A DNA stretch of 32,351 bases from Planctomycetota bacterium (lineage in GTDB: Bacteria; Planctomycetota; UBA1135; GCA-002686595), in NCBI GenBank assembly GCA_029248265.1, contig JAQWJQ010000062.1:1-32351 (forward strand), read 5' to 3'. This document shows positions 742 to 9,405 of this stretch, piece after piece. How positions within the stretch are numbered: position 1 is the stretch's first letter; each line of letters starts with the position of its first letter. The translations under genes and the position numbers were made by a program. Below the pieces are notes generated by a model. It was not told the DNA's origin and did no database searches. It saw nothing but the letters and a program-made list of their open reading frames with translations.

Positions 742-2271
742 ATGCAGGACGCGTTCCGTTCCAAGCTCGCGCGGCTCAGGCGTGAGGGCGATCGACTCCG
801 GGGGGCCTCTGGCGGCGCACCCGGCTCGGAGCCGGAGAAAGGACCCGGCGAGAAGGGACCCGGCGAGAAGGGACCCGGCGAGGAGACTGCGGCAGGGCTC
901 CTCGGAGGCGGGCTCGGGGAGGCGGGGCTGGCGGCAGAGGTGCGCAGCCCAGTCCGCGGGGCCCCCTCCGCCGGAATGCCCGCCAGCCTGAAGGCGCGTC
1001 TTCGCGGAGGCATGGGGTCCGGGCCTGCCGCTGGCGACAGCGGGGGCCGCCCCTCCAGGCCGGCTCCGCTCGGTGGCCCTCTCACCCAGGGCGGCGCCGA
1101 CGGTCTGCGCGCGGCGTCCGCGGCGCCCCCCGCGGCGCTCGTGGAGGTGCGCCGGGCGGAGGGCGCGTTCGCGGTCCGGGAGACACGGGTCGACGTGGCC
1201 ACGTGGAGGCACGGGGGGTGGCGCCTCGATGAGGTCGACGCCGCGGTCCCGTCCGCCATCGCGAGGCTCTCGAAGGACGCGGCGCTGGGGTCCATGCCCC
1301 TGCGGGAGGCCGTGTACCTGGACACGGAGACCAGCGGCCTCTCAGGGGGCGCAGGGGTCTACGTCTACATGGTCGGACTCGGCTGGTTCGAGGGAGGCGA
1401 GTTCGTCAGCTGGCAGGGCTTCCTGCGCGAGCCGGGCGAGGAGCGCGCCATGCTCGCCGCCGTGGCCGAGCGACTCCGGGCGGCGTCGGGAATGGTCTCG
1501 TTCTTCGGCAAGTCCTTCGACCGTCACCGCCTCGAGGACAAGATGCGAATCGCCGGGGTCGAGGCGCCCTTCGAGGGGCTCGCGCACCTTGACCTTTACC
1601 ACCCGTTCCGTCGCTTGACCCAGGGGTCCCTTCCCGATGGGCGGCTCCAGACGATGGAGCGTGAGCTGCTCGACTTCCACAGGACCGACGATCTGCCCGG
1701 GAGCTTCGCGCCTGCGGCCTGGTTTGACTACCTGGCGGGCCGCGCCCACAGGCTCGAGGGGGTCTTCGAGCACAACCACCATGACGTGCTCTCGCTCGCT
1801 GCGCTCGCGGCGTACCTGGGGCGCTCGGTGCTCGAGTGCCGCGCCGACGGTGCCCCGCTGAGCGGGGCCGCCGGTCAGCGAGCCGTGGCGCTCGCTGAGA
1901 CCGCGGTCGATGAGGAAGATGAGCTCCGCTGGATCGGGACGGCTTTTGAGCGCGGCGCAGCGGGTGAAGCTCGCCGCCGGCTGCAGGTGCGTCAGGCGCA
2001 TCTGCACCGACGAGCCGGGAGGGTCGACCTCGCTCGGCAGGCCTACAGGGGGGCGCTCGAGGAGTGCTCGGAAGACCGGTACGCCGTGGAGTTGTTGACC
2101 GGCGGGTCCATGCTCCTCGAGCGTCAGCTCGGAGACCCGACGAGCGCCCACCGCTTGGCGGAGCGTGCGGTCGAGGCGGGGGTCCGCCTCGGGCTGACGG
2201 CGCGGCAGCAGGCGCGGCTCAGGGACCGAGCCAGACGCCTTGCCCGGCTAGCGGCGCCAGAAGCGCCGTAG
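742..2271 (+). CDS. mrfB: MrfB-type DEDDh exonuclease with TPR-like C-terminus
   Basis: This 509-residue protein carries the YprB/MrfB RNase H-like exonuclease domain at about residues 185-365. Visible acidic motifs are LDTETSG (D194, E196), FGKSFDRHRL (D260) and EHNHHDVLSL (H344 and D348). The H-x3-D spacing in the last motif is that of a DEDDh 3'-5' exonuclease. The region after about residue 380 is Arg/Ala/Leu-rich and helical, resembling the TPR tail of Bacillus MrfB. The first 130 residues are Gly/Pro/Ala-rich and contain three copies of a GPGEK unit; they look disordered and make the protein longer than I recall for the Bacillus version. It lies 23 nt after mrfA with its own Shine-Dalgarno sequence, so the two are probably co-transcribed for DNA-lesion repair. 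Its 3' end overlaps the convergent purN by 24 bp. Confidence 0.85.
   Translation: MQDAFRSKLARLRREGDRLRGASGGAPGSEPEKGPGEKGPGEKGPGEETAAGLLGGGLGEAGLAAEVRSPVRGAPSAGMPASLKARLRGGMGSGPAAGDSGGRPSRPAPLGGPLTQGGADGLRAASAAPPAALVEVRRAEGAFAVRETRVDVATWRHGGWRLDEVDAAVPSAIARLSKDAALGSMPLREAVYLDTETSGLSGGAGVYVYMVGLGWFEGGEFVSWQGFLREPGEERAMLAAVAERLRAASGMVSFFGKSFDRHRLEDKMRIAGVEAPFEGLAHLDLYHPFRRLTQGSLPDGRLQTMERELLDFHRTDDLPGSFAPAAWFDYLAGRAHRLEGVFEHNHHDVLSLAALAAYLGRSVLECRADGAPLSGAAGQRAVALAETAVDEEDELRWIGTAFERGAAGEARRRLQVRQAHLHRRAGRVDLARQAYRGALEECSEDRYAVELLTGGSMLLERQLGDPTSAHRLAERAVEAGVRLGLTARQQARLRDRARRLARLAAPEAP
841..885 (+). repeat. 15-bp in-frame tandem repeat within mrfB
   Basis: Three head-to-tail copies of GGACCCGGCGAGAAG occur at 841-855, 856-870 and 871-885, the last with one mismatch. 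They encode GPGEK-GPGEK-GPGEE starting at residue 34. The unit length is a multiple of three, so copy-number change would keep the frame. It lies in the disordered N-terminal extension and probably varies between strains. Confidence 0.85.
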
Positions 2272-2832
2272 GGCCTCGGGGAGGGCCAGCAGCTCCTCCT
2301 GGAAGACGCGGGCCGCGAGGTCCTCGGCCGAATCCTCAGGTTCGACCGCGCACCACCGCTGGAGGAGAATCGGTCCGTTGTCGTAGACCTCGTCCACGAG
2401 GTGCACGGTGCAACCTGAGACCTGACAGCCTCGCTCGAGGACGGCGCGGTGCACGTTCATGCCGAAGTACCCCTTGCCGCCGAAGGCGGGCAGCAAGGAG
2501 GGGTGGATGTTGATGACCCGACCGGCGAAGTCGGCCGGGATCCAGAGCTTCTTCAGGAAGCCAGCGAGGACGACGGTGTCCGCGCCTGCGTCCCGTACCA
2601 CGTCGAACACTCGGCGCCCATAGGACTCAACGGATTCACCCTCCGCGCCCTCGAGCACCTCAGCGCGCAAGCCGAAGCGCGCGGCGCGGTCGAGGGCGGC
2701 GACGCCGGTCCGGTTCGAGAGGACCACGCTCACCTCGGCATCGAAGTCAGCCTGCTCGTCCAGGGCGAGGTCCGCGAGGTTCTCGAGGTGCCGCCCGGTG
2801 CCAGACACCAGGACAGCCAGCGAGTGCGTCAC
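2248..2832 (-). CDS. purN: phosphoribosylglycinamide formyltransferase
   Basis: This enzyme transfers a formyl group from 10-formyl-tetrahydrofolate to GAR in cytoplasmic de novo purine synthesis. The 194-residue length is normal for PurN. The N-terminal segment LAVLVSGTGRHLENL matches the phosphate-binding start of the family. The catalytic set is complete: N108 and H110 in INIHPSLLPAF, and D151 in the VDEVYDNGPI motif. The start is GTG (2832-2830), and those bases overlap the TGA of the upstream PNP-like gene in GTGA, so translation is probably coupled. It is the last gene of the tilS-yggS-kinase-PNP-purN run and overlaps the convergent mrfB end by 24 bp. No other purine-synthesis gene is nearby. 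Confidence 0.93.
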   Translation of the reverse strand: MTHSLAVLVSGTGRHLENLADLALDEQADFDAEVSVVLSNRTGVAALDRAARFGLRAEVLEGAEGESVESYGRRVFDVVRDAGADTVVLAGFLKKLWIPADFAGRVINIHPSLLPAFGGKGYFGMNVHRAVLERGCQVSGCTVHLVDEVYDNGPILLQRWCAVEPEDSAEDLAARVFQEELLALPEALRRFWRR

Positions 2833-3716
2833 GCCTCCACCTCGGCGGCGCGCTCACGCGCGAGCGGCCCCAGGCCCTTGGCTACGGTCTCGACCAGTTG
2901 ATCAAGCACGGGGGCTGTCTCCTGGGCACGGGCCACGATGGTGGCGACGTCGAGGTCGTGCTCGCCGGCGACGTCCGTGACGGCCACGAGGGCGAGGCTC
3001 CCCATCCCCGCGTGGGCCGCGGCGATCAGCGGGTCTCCGAGGCGTTGGACGGAGACGTCGCAGCCGGCGGTCCGGTGCCACGCGAGCTCGGCCGGGGTGC
3101 AGAGCGCGGGGCCGGAGGTGCATGCCGCGACCCCGGTCCGCAACTGGACGCTCAGTGCAGCCGCTGCGGTCGACACGACCTCAGCCAGTCGGCGATCGTG
3201 GACTCTCGTCTGGTCGGGGAAGAGCGGGCCCACGCGGCTCTCGCCGAGGCCGCGCAACGGGGAGCGGCCGGAGAGGTTGAGGTGGTCGACCAGGCGCACC
3301 ACGTCACCAGCGGCCATGGGAGGGCTCCCGTCGCCTTGGAGGGCGGTGCCAGCCGAGGTATGGATCATCAGCTGCGCGCCAGCCGCCCCGGCCAACCACA
3401 CGGGGAAGGCGCGGCTCCAGTCCGGAGCGGCGCTGTTCTCGAGGGTGGGGTCGTCTTCGATGAGCCAGACGCGGGTCTCGCCGAGGTTGCCCGCCCGCAG
3501 CGTGACGCCGTGCCAGGGCTCAGGGACCCCTGGGACCTCCCGGAGAGGAACGACCACGGCGGCGTCCATGCGGGCGGGGAGATCGCCGGGGCCAGTCGCG
3601 AGGAGCAGGAGCGCCTCGGGGGCACCGACCTCTGTGGTTCGCAGCCCGTCCATCGCCTCCGCGACGGCTCGATCGAGGGGATTCCAGTCACCACGGGGAT
3701 CTTCAGTGGAGCTCAT
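2829..3716 (-). CDS. purine nucleoside phosphorylase-like protein with degraded active site
   Basis: This 295-residue protein aligns along its length with trimeric purine nucleoside phosphorylases (PunA/MTAP class). Fold markers are the N-terminal ATGPGDL loop, DHLNLSGRSPLRG (around residue 150) and SGPALCTPAE (201-210). By alignment to remembered human PNP, nearly every active-site residue is replaced. Phosphate ligands Ser33, Arg84, His86 and Ser220 become T41, D88, P90 and R225. Base ligands Glu201 and Asn243 become C206 and D248, and Met219 becomes Q224. Normal phosphorolysis is therefore unlikely. The ATG at 3716 shares one base with the kinase stop (TAATG), and its TGA overlaps the purN start. 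A longer frame reaching 3908 was not used, because it would lie inside the kinase. The role is unknown; binding of a purine or scaffolding is possible. Confidence 0.8.
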   Translation of the reverse strand: MSSTEDPRGDWNPLDRAVAEAMDGLRTTEVGAPEALLLLATGPGDLPARMDAAVVVPLREVPGVPEPWHGVTLRAGNLGETRVWLIEDDPTLENSAAPDWSRAFPVWLAGAAGAQLMIHTSAGTALQGDGSPPMAAGDVVRLVDHLNLSGRSPLRGLGESRVGPLFPDQTRVHDRRLAEVVSTAAAALSVQLRTGVAACTSGPALCTPAELAWHRTAGCDVSVQRLGDPLIAAAHAGMGSLALVAVTDVAGEHDLDVATIVARAQETAPVLDQLVETVAKGLGPLARERAAEVEA

Positions 3717-6700
3717 TACTTGGTGCCTCCGTCGGACAGCAGCATCACGACCCAGGTGCCGCGGTTCTCGTTCACGAGCCGTTGGAGGAGTGAAGCGGAG
3801 AGGGTCCAGTCGCCCTCCTGGCGGGCGATCAATGCGTCGGCGAGGAGCCGCGCAGCGGTCTGTTGGCGCGCCGCGCCTGCCACGCCGGCTGGCGCGCGCT
3901 CCGACCAATCCTGCGCCCGCGCGAACGCGGACAGGGCGCCCACGATGGCGCTCGCGCTGAGGCGTCGAGCGTCCTTCTGCAGGGCCGGTTCGGAGGCGTC
4001 GAGGAGCTCGAGCGTGGCGCTCAGGGTCATCAACGCGAGGATCCCTTCCTCCTCAGGCTCGGTCCAGCTGCGGTCAAGGCGGCCCTTGAACAGGTTGTCG
4101 AGAGCCTGGGTCTTGCCCGCCCAGGTGGCGAGGGAGACCTGCTGTGGTGCGCCTGGCGCCTCGACCACCAGCGCGCCGGGTGCCGTGCCGAGGACGCTCA
4201 CCGTGCCGTTGGCAGAGGGGCGCGGGTCGATGACTCCCTGGCGTCGCCACCCCGGGTCGGTCCAGCCAGCGAGGAGTGCGTCGAGCGCGGCCTGCGCCTT
4301 GAGGAGGTCGGCGGCGAGGCCGCGGAGCTGCTCGGCCAGGTCGGCGTCACCGGTGAGCCCGGCGGCTCTCGAGACGCGGGTGCTCGCGCTGGCGAGGTCG
4401 AACTGGCGGAGGTCGGCCTCCAGGGCTGAGCCGAGGCTCTCGGCCACGGCGGCGCGCTCTCGGCCACTGCGGATCGCCTTGAACTCGTCCTCGCGCCCGC
4501 GGAGGCCATCCAGTCGCCCACGCACCTTGGCGGCGAGATCGGTGAACTCCTTGACCGAGGGCGGCGCGGAGGCGCCCACGAGCAGCGGGGCCTCCTCTTC
4601 CGTGGGGAGGTCCGTGAGAGCGATGAAGCCGCGCAGGGGCTGTTGGGTCCCGAGCAGGTCGCCCGTCGCCTCGGACTGATCAGCGGCCGCCATGGCCTCC
4701 TGCCCTCGGGCGAGCCCGATCTTCATCGCGCGGTCCACGAGCCCCGCTCGGCCGGCGATGAACTCGAGGTCGGTCGCGAGGTTGCCAGGCGCCACGATGA
4801 GGTTCATGGCTCGCAGCGCTTGTCCGGGGTGGAAAGGGCTCTGCTCGAAGTCGGCGGCCGTGCTCAGCGCAGCGAGCGCCGCAGCGAGGCCAGCAGATCG
4901 GGCCTCGGCGACCTGGGACGCGGCGGTGGCGCCAGACTCGATCAGCGCCGCCTCCTCCAGGGCCCGGGAGGCGGCGTCGGTGCCGGCGAACTGCTCAGCC
5001 AGGGTTCGCAGGCGAGCGGTCCGCTTTTCAGGCGACAGAAGCTCCTCCCCGAGGGCGAGGAACGCGCGCTCTGCCTGGTACTCGAACTCCGCCTCGGCGG
5101 CAGGGGCGGCCTGCGTCACGGAAGCCGCGCCGCTGCTCCCGACAGAGGGTTCCTCATTCACGCTCACACCACCATCGGCTTGGCCGCTCGACGCGGCGGC
5201 AGAGCCCTCGCTGGCCCCTTGGTCAGCGATGGCCCCTTGATCGGCGACGGTCTGGCTGCTGGCGCCGCTGCTCCCGCCTTGAACGCCGCCACCGGACGGG
5301 GGATCGCCCTGGCCGACGTCCGCCCCGCTGCCTCGGAAGGGCTCCGGCTCTGGAGCGGGGGCTTCGCCGCCGCTCAGCGCGAGGTAGCCAGCCACAGCGG
5401 CCACGAGGACCGCGACTGCCAATAGCCCGACCTTCGACTTGGGGGCCGCCGGGGCTCCGGTGGGCGCGCCCGTGGCGCCGCCTGAGCGGATCGCCTCCAG
5501 CTCATTGAGGAGGATGGACGCGGAGGGCGGCCGCTGGTCGGGGTCCTTCTCGAGGAGCCGGTGGATGACGGCCTCCAGCCTCGCCGGCAGGCCGGGGACG
5601 AGCGCGCCCAGCTTGGCCGGTTCCTCGGTCATCGCGGCGCGGAGGATGTCGCGGGACGTGGGGCCCTCAAAGGGCGTCTTCCCGGACAGCACGCGGTACG
5701 CCGTGACGCCGAGGGCGTAGAGGTCACCGCGTGAGTCGGCGGGCTTGCCCTGGGCGATCTCCGGAGCGATGAAGTGGGGCGTGCCGAAGATCTTGCCCCC
5801 GCTGGAGTCGACGGTCTCTTGCTCCACCTGCACGGCCAGGCCGAGGTCCGCGATCTTTGTGACGCCGTCCTGATTGCGCATCAGGTTCTCGGGCTTGATG
5901 TCGCGGTGGACGATGCCACGGGACTCGGCGTACACGAGACCGGCGGCCGCGTCTCGGAGCACGTCGAGCGCCTCCCGCCAGGGCAGCGGGCCGAGCTCCT
6001 CGAGGCGAGCCTCGATGGACCCGCCGGCCATGAACTCCATGGAGAGGAAGTGTCGCTCCCCGGACTGGCCCACGTCGAAGACCGTGACGATGTTCGGGTG
6101 ATTGAGCCGCGCCGCCGCGCGAGCTTCATCCTTGAAGCGCTGCACGAAGACCTGGTCACGCGCGAGCTTCGGCTTCAGGACCTTGAGGGCGACCCGCCGG
6201 TCGAGGCTCTCCTGGGTGCTCAGGTAGACGTCGCCCATGGCGCCGCGACCGAGTTGGCGGTCCACGAGGTACCCCGGGATCGCCGGCAGGCCCTTGGCCG
6301 CGGCGCGCGCCGGGGTCCCAGGCTCGGCGCTGGAGACGGAGGGGGGCGCATCGGGGAGCGTCAGCTCGTCGGGTGCGGGGCTTGTCCTCGCGGGCTCCGC
6401 GCTCTTGGGCGCGGGAGGCGGGGGCGCGGACGTCGCCGGTGCTCGTTGGCCGTCGCTCCGCTGAGCGCTGTTGGTGAGCGAGAAGATGCGGAGCTTCTTC
6501 GACCCCAGGAGGATCTCGTCCCCCTCATTCAGGCGTGCGGCTTCAACGGGCTCTCCGTTGAGGAGCGTGCCGAACTCGGAGCCCAGGTCCTGGAGGGCCC
6601 AGCCGCCACCCTTGATGCGCCCAATGGCGCAGTGCACGGCGGCCACGCCCTGGCCGGCGACGACGAAAGAGGCCCTCTCGTCTGACGCTCCGATCACGAG

Positions 6701-6769
6701 CTTGCCCTGGCGCGGGAGCTCGGCGGGCGCCTCAGCGGCGCCCACGACTTCGATGTACAGCGGATCCAT
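3716..6769 (-). CDS. membrane-anchored Hanks-type Ser/Thr protein kinase with N-terminal FHA domain
   Basis: This 1017-residue protein has an FHA-like domain (about 20-100), a Pro/Ala linker, a protein kinase domain (about 167-427), one membrane helix (about 446-465) and a long extracytoplasmic part. Kinase residues are intact: GRGAMGDV glycine loop (174-181), K196 in VALKV, HRDIKPEN with D290, K292 and N295, DLG at 308-310 in place of DFG, and GTPHFIAPE. The FHA domain keeps N71-G72 and H46, but the Arg of the GR motif is A28 and the Ser of SxxH is A43, so classical phosphothreonine binding is doubtful. After the helix come a low-complexity Gly/Ser/Ala stretch and a mostly helical Ala-rich region with no motif I recognise. 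Both ends overlap neighbours: TGATG with yggS and TAATG with the PNP-like gene. The operon suggests a link to nucleotide or vitamin B6 status (inference). Confidence 0.88.
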   Translation of the reverse strand: MDPLYIEVVGAAEAPAELPRQGKLVIGASDERASFVVAGQGVAAVHCAIGRIKGGGWALQDLGSEFGTLLNGEPVEAARLNEGDEILLGSKKLRIFSLTNSAQRSDGQRAPATSAPPPPAPKSAEPARTSPAPDELTLPDAPPSVSSAEPGTPARAAAKGLPAIPGYLVDRQLGRGAMGDVYLSTQESLDRRVALKVLKPKLARDQVFVQRFKDEARAAARLNHPNIVTVFDVGQSGERHFLSMEFMAGGSIEARLEELGPLPWREALDVLRDAAAGLVYAESRGIVHRDIKPENLMRNQDGVTKIADLGLAVQVEQETVDSSGGKIFGTPHFIAPEIAQGKPADSRGDLYALGVTAYRVLSGKTPFEGPTSRDILRAAMTEEPAKLGALVPGLPARLEAVIHRLLEKDPDQRPPSASILLNELEAIRSGGATGAPTGAPAAPKSKVGLLAVAVLVAAVAGYLALSGGEAPAPEPEPFRGSGADVGQGDPPSGGGVQGGSSGASSQTVADQGAIADQGASEGSAAASSGQADGGVSVNEEPSVGSSGAASVTQAAPAAEAEFEYQAERAFLALGEELLSPEKRTARLRTLAEQFAGTDAASRALEEAALIESGATAASQVAEARSAGLAAALAALSTAADFEQSPFHPGQALRAMNLIVAPGNLATDLEFIAGRAGLVDRAMKIGLARGQEAMAAADQSEATGDLLGTQQPLRGFIALTDLPTEEEAPLLVGASAPPSVKEFTDLAAKVRGRLDGLRGREDEFKAIRSGRERAAVAESLGSALEADLRQFDLASASTRVSRAAGLTGDADLAEQLRGLAADLLKAQAALDALLAGWTDPGWRRQGVIDPRPSANGTVSVLGTAPGALVVEAPGAPQQVSLATWAGKTQALDNLFKGRLDRSWTEPEEEGILALMTLSATLELLDASEPALQKDARRLSASAIVGALSAFARAQDWSERAPAGVAGAARQQTAARLLADALIARQEGDWTLSASLLQRLVNENRGTWVVMLLSDGGTK

Positions 6770-7629
6770 CAGTCAGCCTGGGGCCCGTTCACGGGATCAG
6801 TGGTTGCGGGGTCCTGGGCCAGGACTCCTCGCGTCGATTCTTCGCGCTCGGGTACATTCCGGTAGAGGGCGGTCCCCACGCGGACGAGGTCAGAGCCGAG
6901 CTCCACGGCGAGGGGCGCGTCGCCGCTCATTCCCATGGAGAGCTCGCACCGGTCCGCGGCGAAAGCCTCCCCGACCTCTCGCTCCAGAGTACGCGCGAGC
7001 TCGCGCGCATGTTGAAAGACCTCGCGGGGCGTGCGGTGTTCCCGCAGCGGGCCCATGGCCATGAGGCCTCGGACCTTGATGTGCTCTGAGCCAGCGAGCA
7101 TGCGCACGGCGTCGGCGGCTTGTTCAGCAGCGAAGCCGTGCTTCTCTTCTTCGCCAGTGAGGTTGACCTGCACGAAGACGTCGAGCGGACGCCCGAGCTC
7201 CTCGGTGATGCGGACGACGGCCTCTGCGAGGCGGGGCGAGTCCACGGAGTGAAGCACGTGGGCCTGTTCGAGGACGCGCCTGACCTTGTTGCGCTGGAGG
7301 TGCCCGATGTAGTGCCACCGAGGGGTGAGGCCTTCCGACGCGAAGAGCTTCGCCCGTCGGCAGAAGGCGTCCGCCCGGTTCTCGCCCAGGTCTTGGCAGC
7401 CCGCGTCGAGGACCATCCGAGCCACCTCGTCGTCGACGGCCTTGGTCACGGCGACGAGGGTCGGGGCAGCGCGCCCGGCGGCGGCGGCGGTCGCGGAGAG
7501 TCCCTCGCGGAGGCCCGCGAGATTCCGTCGGACGGCGTCCCTACGGGGGTCCACAGGCGGAGGACCGCTCACGGGGCTCCCATCACAGGAATGGATGGCG
7601 GCGGGGTTCGGGCGAATGGAGACGGGCAC
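6769..7629 (-). CDS. yggS: YggS/PLPBP-family pyridoxal-phosphate homeostasis protein
   Basis: This is a single-domain TIM-barrel PLP-binding protein of the YggS/YBL036C family, which buffers intracellular PLP and has no known catalytic reaction. The PLP lysine is K63 in LVAVTKAV. Other family motifs are LGENRADAF, WHYIGHLQRNKVR, HSVDSPRLAEAV, VNLTGEEEKHGF, GLMAMGPL and LSMGMSGDAPLAVELGSDLVRVGTALY. The length of 286 exceeds the usual 230 or so, with about 25 extra residues at the start and a short acidic tail. The start used is GTG at 7629; GTG at 7554 would give a standard-length N-terminus and cannot be excluded. It follows tilS by 33 nt and its TGA overlaps the kinase ATG (TGATG). Confidence 0.9.
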   Translation of the reverse strand: MPVSIRPNPAAIHSCDGSPVSGPPPVDPRRDAVRRNLAGLREGLSATAAAAGRAAPTLVAVTKAVDDEVARMVLDAGCQDLGENRADAFCRRAKLFASEGLTPRWHYIGHLQRNKVRRVLEQAHVLHSVDSPRLAEAVVRITEELGRPLDVFVQVNLTGEEEKHGFAAEQAADAVRMLAGSEHIKVRGLMAMGPLREHRTPREVFQHARELARTLEREVGEAFAADRCELSMGMSGDAPLAVELGSDLVRVGTALYRNVPEREESTRGVLAQDPATTDPVNGPQAD

Positions 7630-7662: not shown

Positions 7663-9405
7663 TCACCGGCCTGAACCACCTCGAGCGCCGTCCAGGGACA
7701 GGCGGATTCGTCGGTCGGTGGCGCCAGTGACCTTGCGGCTCTCCGATACGGCTATCCCAGCCACCCAGACCACCTCCTCGTCCGCGAGGACGATCGGCAC
7801 CAGGCCTCGCTCCTCGCGCGGCACGCCGGCCTCCCCGAGGAAACGTCGGAGCGGCTTGTGCCCAGGGGCTCCAGGGGCGCGGAAGCGGTCTCCAGGCCTC
7901 GCGAATCGGACCCTGAACTGGGTGATGCCGGCGCCGTCCAGCTCGATCACGGTCGGATCCTGCGGGTCGACGGGGGCTCCGAGCGGGCCCGTTTCGGCGC
8001 TGATGGACCGCCCGTCGGCGAGCTGCACTGCCCCGGGGAGCCCCAGTACGAGCCCAGGGCCGGCAATGGGCGCCGAGGAGGAGTCGCCGGGCTCGTCGCT
8101 GCTCGTGGGGAGCAGGCTCTCTGTGGGCGGAGTGAGGTGCAGCGCGTCCGAGCGGAGCTGCACGGTCCAGCCCTCGTGGACCTCCATGCGGCATGTGCGG
8201 CCCTCTTCGACCGCCTCGCCGAGCCTCGAGAGGAACGCTCGGGTCGGCCTGCGGCCGGTGCCCTCGCCGATCAGTCGCCCCAGCGCTCGCCGCAAAAGCG
8301 GTGCGCTGAGGGCCTCGAGGTCCGCGCGTGGGATGGTGCCGCCGAGTTCCGGCATGGCCGCAGAGCGGCGGGCCGGCTCGTGGGTCACCGCCTGCCACTG
8401 GACGTGCCCGGTCCGGTCCGCGAGCTCGTCCTCGAAGGACTCAATGGCCTTGGCGAAGTCGAAGAAGTTCTCCACGCCCTCTTCCCCGCAGCTGTCCTGG
8501 ATCTGAGGGAGGACCTCGTTCCGGACGCGGTTGCGGCTGAACTGCGAGCCGCCATTGGAGCTGTCCTCACGCCACTCGAGCTGCTCGCGCCTCAGGGCGC
8601 TCCGGACCTCTTCCCGGCGCATGCCCATCAGCGGGCGCAGGACACGCATCCCCGTCGGGGCGTCCTTGCTGGCACCGTGGCCCTTCCCGAGGACCGCCTC
8701 GCGACGAAGGCCGGCGAGGCCGCCGAGGTCTGACCCCCTCATCCAGCGCATCAGAAGGGTCTCGACCGCGTCGTCTTCGTGATGCCCCGTGAGCAGCACA
8801 GAGATGCCGGCGGCGGAGGCTTCGGAGGCCAGGGCCTTGTAGCGGCCCTCTCGAGCGCGGGCCTCGACATCCCCGCCACGGGGGTCGACTTCGGCCACAC
8901 GGCGAGCAAACGGGATCCCGAGCTTGGCGCAGAGCCGCGCGCAGAAGGCCGCGTCGTCATGGGACTCGTCGCCCCTCAGGCGGTGATCCACGTGGACGGC
9001 AAGCACCTTCGGGCGCGACTCGGCGCGGGCCAGAATGTGGAGGAGGTAGACACTATCTGCGCCTCCGCTCAGGGCCACAGCGACGGGGGTTTGCGGAGCG
9101 AGGCCGAGCCCGTGGGCGAGGCGGCTCCATCGAGAGGCCCAGGGGCCGGCCGCGGGCGCAGCGGGGGACAGGGGCTCCGGCCGGGCCTCGGGGGCGCGTT
9201 CCGGCGCTTGCCGCTCGTCCGCCCCGGCAGGAGCCGCGGGGTCGGACCGCCTTCCGCTGGCGAGGTCCAGCTCTCGCGCCCGGTCGAGGGCCCCATCAGG
9301 GCCCCGGTCCAGCTCGCGGGCAGGTTCATTCCGACGGGCCTGAGCCTCGTCGGCCAGGGTGTCGTCGGTCCGGGCGGGTTGGGTGTTCTTGGCGCTTCCA
9401 GTCAC
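7663..9405 (-). CDS. tilS: tRNA(Ile)-lysidine synthetase
   Basis: TilS converts the wobble cytidine of the CAU-anticodon tRNA(Ile) to lysidine, an essential ATP-dependent step. The PP-loop ATP site is SGGADS (113-118), followed by VDHRLRGDES, TGHHEDDAVETLLMRWMRG and the downstream RNRVRNEVLP segment. The C-terminal third has the TilS substrate-binding domain, including RFRAPGAPGHKPLRRFLGEAGVP and VWVAGIAVSES. The encoded length from the GTG at 9405 is 580 residues. About 100 residues before the ATP loop are Ala/Pro/Arg/Glu-rich and unlike other TilS proteins. There is no ATG between this start and the loop, so the true start may be a downstream GTG or TTG. It heads the minus-strand run that includes yggS. 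Confidence 0.92.
   Translation of the reverse strand: MTGSAKNTQPARTDDTLADEAQARRNEPARELDRGPDGALDRARELDLASGRRSDPAAPAGADERQAPERAPEARPEPLSPAAPAAGPWASRWSRLAHGLGLAPQTPVAVALSGGADSVYLLHILARAESRPKVLAVHVDHRLRGDESHDDAAFCARLCAKLGIPFARRVAEVDPRGGDVEARAREGRYKALASEASAAGISVLLTGHHEDDAVETLLMRWMRGSDLGGLAGLRREAVLGKGHGASKDAPTGMRVLRPLMGMRREEVRSALRREQLEWREDSSNGGSQFSRNRVRNEVLPQIQDSCGEEGVENFFDFAKAIESFEDELADRTGHVQWQAVTHEPARRSAAMPELGGTIPRADLEALSAPLLRRALGRLIGEGTGRRPTRAFLSRLGEAVEEGRTCRMEVHEGWTVQLRSDALHLTPPTESLLPTSSDEPGDSSSAPIAGPGLVLGLPGAVQLADGRSISAETGPLGAPVDPQDPTVIELDGAGITQFRVRFARPGDRFRAPGAPGHKPLRRFLGEAGVPREERGLVPIVLADEEVVWVAGIAVSESRKVTGATDRRIRLSLDGARGGSGR

Follow-up and report, generated by a model that had tools for sequence, protein, structure and literature searches.

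The stretch of DNA analysed here (contig JAQWJQ010000062.1, 32,351 nucleotides; hereafter the window), which comes from a member of the Planctomycetota, carries between a gene for a protein kinase and purN a gene whose product resembles a purine-nucleoside phosphorylase (PNP) and has lost most of the residues that serve catalysis in that enzyme. What does such a protein do, and with which partner does it act? An earlier note on this locus had described it as a pseudoenzyme or a protein with a new ligand and had favoured a role as a purine sensor or as a partner of the kinase. The reading favoured by our analyses, to which we assign a probability of roughly 0.45, is that this protein (hereafter pseudo-PNP) is a non-phosphorolytic partner subunit, from which the canonical PNP of the same cell would receive a subunit-interface loop.

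The pseudo-PNP gene is a real open reading frame of 295 amino acids (aa) on the minus strand (2829–3716; protein P0002); the earlier note had not stated the strand, and the plus-strand reading of the same interval is not a PNP. P0002 scores 66.5 bits against the Pfam family PNP_UDP_1 (PF01048), above the cut-off of 25.1, and trimeric PNPs in the PDB match it by sequence with an E value of 3e-21. An AlphaFold model built with 34 orthologues (mean pLDDT 92) superposes on trimeric PNPs in the PDB with Z scores of 30–33 over residues 11–288, and on the planctomycete PNP 4m1e with a Z score of 32.2 and an rmsd of 2.0 over 262 residues. P0002 thus belongs to the PF01048 phosphorylase superfamily and has the trimeric PNP fold without the catalytic ligands; the earlier assignment to this fold is borne out, and the PNP motifs quoted in its favour are all present. 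The NCBIfam models for PNP also match P0002, well under their cut-offs (PRK08202, 111 against 218; TIGR01697, 94.8 against 197.1). Its named relatives are Planctomycetota; they include strains with complete genomes, Poly30 (CP036434) and Pla163 (CP036290), which we take to be Saltatorellus ferox and Rohdeia mirabilis, respectively, both names existing in the taxonomy. A search of viral contigs with A1 returned no relatives.

The active-site residues were mapped by a MAFFT alignment with human PNP and approximately 100 relatives, together with predicted secondary structure; the landmark residues of the human reference sequence were checked. In the phosphate and ribose sites, S33, R84, H86 and Y88 of human PNP correspond to T41, D88/D89, P90/T91 and approximately N94 of P0002, and the H64 loop is shorter than in human PNP, while the remaining ligands N115, E201, M219, S220, N243 and H257 correspond to S121, C206, Q224, R225, D248 and V257. 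None of the phosphate and ribose ligands expected as R84-x-H86-x-Y88 is present in residues 88–94 (3435–3455, minus strand). The motif ATGPG (residues 40–44; 3585–3599, minus strand) is a remnant of the GSG/GTG phosphate loop, the segment GPALCTPAE (residues 202–210; 3087–3113, minus strand) spans the old base site, with E201 changed to C206, and the acceptor half of the subunit interface (PMC9916683), and Q224-R225 (3042–3047, minus strand) takes the place of M219-S220, its Gln being near-invariant in the full-length family and its Arg position variable. The residues replaced in P0002 are hence R84, H86, Y88, N115, E201, M219, S220 and H257. T41 and D248 are ancestral and not replacements, because Thr33 and Asp243 are already present in 26 of 26 sequences of the ‘D-type’, the intact PNPs nearest to P0002 within the phylum. 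The earlier claim that six ligands had all been replaced accordingly stands for R84, H86, E201 and S220 and has to be withdrawn for Ser33 and Asn243.

The gene is under purifying selection, with dN/dS values of 0.09–0.18 between close relatives, and pseudo-PNP is found in 74 of the 81 genomes of its GTDB family (65 full-length, 7 shortened, all in the genus g54, and 2 with the C-terminus at a contig end). Nine genomes lacking a pseudo-PNP match were considered as counter-examples and set aside: two of them have the C-terminus cut at a contig end, and in the other seven the absence is best read as missing sequence, because the entire purN locus is missing there. Within this family, pseudo-PNP is present wherever the locus has been assembled. 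The shortened proteins of g54 (L194, L195, L196, L197, L215, L217 and L219) are approximately 224 aa long, lack the GTG loop and the TPAE motif, and still occupy the operon slot before purN.

Across these orthologues the loss of R84, H86 and Y88 is universal (absent from 37/37 aligned full-length sequences, and 100% kept in both intact clades), and R84, H86, S220 and the H64 loop are absent from P0002 and the aligned orthologues apart from an occasional Ser at position 220. Conservation of the changes does not extend to E201, which is lost in the window's genus and kept in approximately 41% of pseudo-PNP orthologues; Asp243 is kept in 83% of them. Neither a conserved replacement for Arg84, His86, His64 or Ser220 nor an alternative conserved Arg or His at the phosphate site was found among the aligned orthologues. 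The proposal of a pseudoenzyme is supported by this combination of lost catalytic residues and purifying selection: pseudo-PNP is very probably non-catalytic in function and, to judge from the alignments, likely to be non-phosphorolytic.

The pseudo-PNP gene overlaps both of its neighbours. A GTGA overlap (2829–2832, minus strand) joins its stop to the start of purN, which encodes phosphoribosylglycinamide formyltransferase (2248–2832, minus strand; Formyl_trans_N 123 bits; TIGR00639 139 bits, just under the cut-off of 150), and a TAATG overlap (3714–3718, minus strand) joins its start to the stop of the gene for an FHA and Ser/Thr protein kinase (3716–6769, minus strand) with one predicted membrane span (447–466) and a long C-terminal region. 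Approximately 550 residues of this C-terminal region have no Pfam match. Beyond the kinase lie genes for a yggS-type PLP-binding protein (6769–7629, minus strand) and a tilS-type protein (7663–9405, minus strand; SGGADS motif), both recognised by sequence inspection and both conserved in operon position. The gene order tilS-yggS-kinase-yggU-PNP-purN is found, whole or in part, across the phylum, and the kinase shares the operon with pseudo-PNP throughout the family. In many relatives a yggU/DUF167-like gene, identified by inspection, separates kinase and PNP (L066, L068, L069, L070, L072, L073, L078, L158, L160, L163, L174, L175 and L192); the window's genome gave no DUF167 match. The direct kinase overlap accompanies the loss of the intervening yggU and is not general in the family, and it is regarded as secondary because so many relatives have yggU in between. 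Of the coupling to kinase and purN reported previously, both overlaps are real and the tight purN spacing holds in nearly all family relatives, whereas coupling to the kinase is limited to some genomes. The coupling was considered as the main argument for a kinase partner and rejected as such, since it accompanies the loss of yggU and the order kinase-PNP-purN is older than the loss of the active site; the earlier suggestion of a kinase partner is weakened and, on balance, unsupported.

Outside the order, the PNP slot of this operon is occupied by an intact D-type PNP (L097, L174, L175, L178 and L192); inside it, the slot contains an altered form, ‘psi-2’, in the families f3, f6 and f7 and another, ‘psi-1’, in the family of the window. 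The operon-slot PNPs (intact D-type, psi-1 and psi-2) all form one clade (support 0.976). Since other lineages of the phylum carry an intact PNP in this operon, the active site was lost in place. Pseudo-PNP was not found in a genome of family f8 (G043) or in any of the genomes examined from f2 and f5, and those of their canonical PNPs that were read keep Phe159; in the f8 genome (L297) yggU lies directly before purN, the intervening PNP gene being gone. One f3 genome (G038, L160; fragmented assembly) has an altered operon PNP and no canonical PNP match at an E value of 1e-30, so that the loss in this genome may have a cause other than redundancy.

The part of pseudo-PNP that has been most strictly kept is a subunit interface. 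In calf PNP the interface consists mainly of loop 141–168 of one subunit packed against segments 87–91 and 196–205 of its neighbour, to whose active site the first subunit contributes a single residue, Phe159 (PMC9916683). The corresponding Phe159-bearing loop of pseudo-PNP (residues 144–168, DHLNLSGRSPLRGLGESRVGPLFPD; 3213–3287, minus strand) is the most conserved segment of the family: this donor block ranks first of 271 windows in conservation, and the same loop window ranks 17 in intact D-type PNPs and 57–100 in other groups. F166, at the Phe159 position, is retained in P0002, a feature absent from the earlier note, and is invariant in 43 of 43 pseudo-PNPs. The acceptor surface has fared differently. 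Segment 87–91 is gone in pseudo-PNP, and the pocket into which the loop would fit in a homo-oligomer has drifted, with an entropy of 3.7 bits at the Y88 position, while 75% of the ancestral residues of segment 196–205 are kept in the full-length orthologues; the proteins of g54 have lost both acceptor segments and retain the loop. On their sequences, a PNP-like homotrimer in g54 looks impossible.

A complementary loss is seen in the canonical PNP of the same cells. The window's genome contains a separate canonical PNP (L002) with an intact catalytic set and without the Phe159 loop; at L002 (1480–3632) this gene directly follows an open reading frame that by inspection resembles a concentrative nucleoside transporter. 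Among 68 distinct canonical PNP sequences read in the window's GTDB family, all have the complete set S33-H64-R84-H86-Y88-N115-E201-M219-S220-N243-H257, and 67 lack Phe159 and the loop (66 by deletion and 1 through an unrelated insert). The one sequence that keeps them is a second, additional PNP of a genome (G362) whose other copy is loop-less. In other families of the order, Phe159 is kept in 25/25 canonical PNPs. The family's canonical PNP has kept 100% and 90% of the ancestral residues in the acceptor segments 87–91 and 196–205, and 30% of the donor residues.

On this evidence the pseudo-PNP gene descends, without change of position, from a PNP of the kinase-yggU-PNP-purN operon that looked active, and its product has lost the phosphate, ribose and base ligands and kept the long interface loop (human 141–168, with Phe159). 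The history may have been stepwise: an intact operon PNP would have been followed by loss of the phosphate site across the order and then by loss of the loop from the catalytic copy of one family. Pseudo-PNP may now lend its loop to the canonical PNP in trans; the loop would cover the 87–91 and 196–205 surface of that enzyme and close its active site, and pseudo-PNP would act as a prozyme-like subunit that associates physically with the canonical enzyme and activates or stabilises it. As in prozyme systems, the same genome holds a paralogue (L002) with an intact active site and a complementary loss of the loop. The canonical PNP, which is without exactly the loop that pseudo-PNP conserves, appears to be the better-supported partner than the kinase; from a correlation confined to a single lineage, we place its identification as the partner at or slightly under the probability of the whole reading. 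That the active enzyme is a heteromer, a bacterial ‘split’ PNP made of a catalytic subunit and a dead loop-bearing paralogue, is a more tentative proposition.

Several observations count against the canonical PNP as a partner. Its gene sits outside the pseudo-PNP operon, and the loss of the loop and the remodelling of pseudo-PNP each map to one lineage, a single and unrepeated coincidence. A mirror-tree comparison of distance matrices gave a partial r of 0.28 between pseudo-PNP and PNP, no stronger than the controls with unrelated neighbours. In human PNP the F159A replacement leaves the trimer intact and reportedly changes activity little (PMC9916683); a PNP without the loop may thus need no partner at all.

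Most of the 196–205 acceptor is kept in full-length orthologues, so pseudo-PNP may also form a homo-oligomer. The loop would then serve self-assembly only, and the protein would regulate or scaffold a different partner in the cytoplasm, for instance PurN or the kinase encoded next to it. We consider this unlikely. In nearly all members the gene is closely coupled to purN, the operon includes the kinase throughout the family, and full-length members have both loop and 196–205 acceptor, all of which agrees with it; however, the gene order was in place before the loss and is hence silent on any new partner, yggU separates kinase and PNP in many genomes, and g54 retains the loop without either acceptor segment.

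A new small-molecule ligand, or another non-phosphorolytic chemistry, is an improbable function in the window's family. Residues newly fixed in pseudo-PNP (W84, D88, W100, W107, Q224, H173 and others) could form such a site, since those named exceed 90% conservation among full-length orthologues and do not occur in intact PNPs, and the sister group psi-2 has a rigidly conserved altered pocket (R84P, H86A, E201P and N243Q near-invariant, M219/S220 kept; L088, L089, L092-L094, L154, L156, L160, L161, L163, L165, L166 and L173), which perhaps binds a new ligand. In the window's family, however, the old pocket drifts, with a mean entropy of 1.53 bits over 20 columns against 0.35 and 0.15 in the intact clades, and the entropy of the pocket columns is not significantly lower than that of the rest of the protein; g54 has lost Q224 and largely retains the Trp cluster and the loop, which fits packing better than catalysis. 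The same drift of the old ligand positions, where conservation would be expected, leaves the purine sensor suggested earlier unsupported. That pseudo-PNP is a weak or altered PNP still cleaving purine nucleosides with other residues is very improbable: the fold is intact, E201 persists in part of the family and Thr33 and Asp243 are as in intact relatives, but Arg84, His86, His64 and Ser220 have gone unreplaced and the 84–90 loop is among the most variable stretches of the protein. Decay of a functionless gene, for which the shortened form in g54 might be cited, is ruled out for practical purposes by the low dN/dS values, the long open frames and the family-wide presence.

Stable non-catalytic paralogues are common, and their partners are seldom predictable. 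Here each of two paralogues has lost the half of an interface that the other retains, so that the loss itself names a candidate partner, and the prediction can be tested with two small soluble proteins. If it is correct, prozyme-type activation would extend to bacterial purine salvage, and the operon-slot proteins would provide a series of intermediates (intact, with a fixed altered pocket, with an open pocket, and truncated) in the conversion of an enzyme into a subunit. For most of an order of Planctomycetota, the annotation ‘purine-nucleoside phosphorylase’ at this operon slot is probably wrong.

Nothing relevant to this operon, to a pseudoenzyme of the PNP type or to heteromers of PNP was found in a search of the open-access literature. 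The closest comparison is with the trimeric (class I) PNPs, viz. 4m1e from Planctomyces limnophilus, 8swu and human PNP, with which pseudo-PNP shares the fold and the interface loop with Phe159, and from which it differs by the absence of R84, H86, Y88, M219, S220, H257 and the H64 loop and by an E201 that is not conserved; D243 and T33 are common to it and the planctomycete D-type PNPs. Poplar bark and vegetative storage proteins are likewise nucleoside-phosphorylase-like with a non-salvage role (PMC3751785), but this role is nitrogen storage in a plant, with neither an operon nor a complementary loss in a paralogue. Activation by a dead paralogue is known for the deoxyhypusine synthase (PMC3663545) and AdoMetDC (PMC5201418) of trypanosomes, and the trypanosomatid prozymes resemble the present case in that a dead paralogue stands beside an active enzyme that has a loss of its own. 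The present system, for which a complex and activation are predicted, differs in being bacterial and in that its active copy has lost an interface loop.
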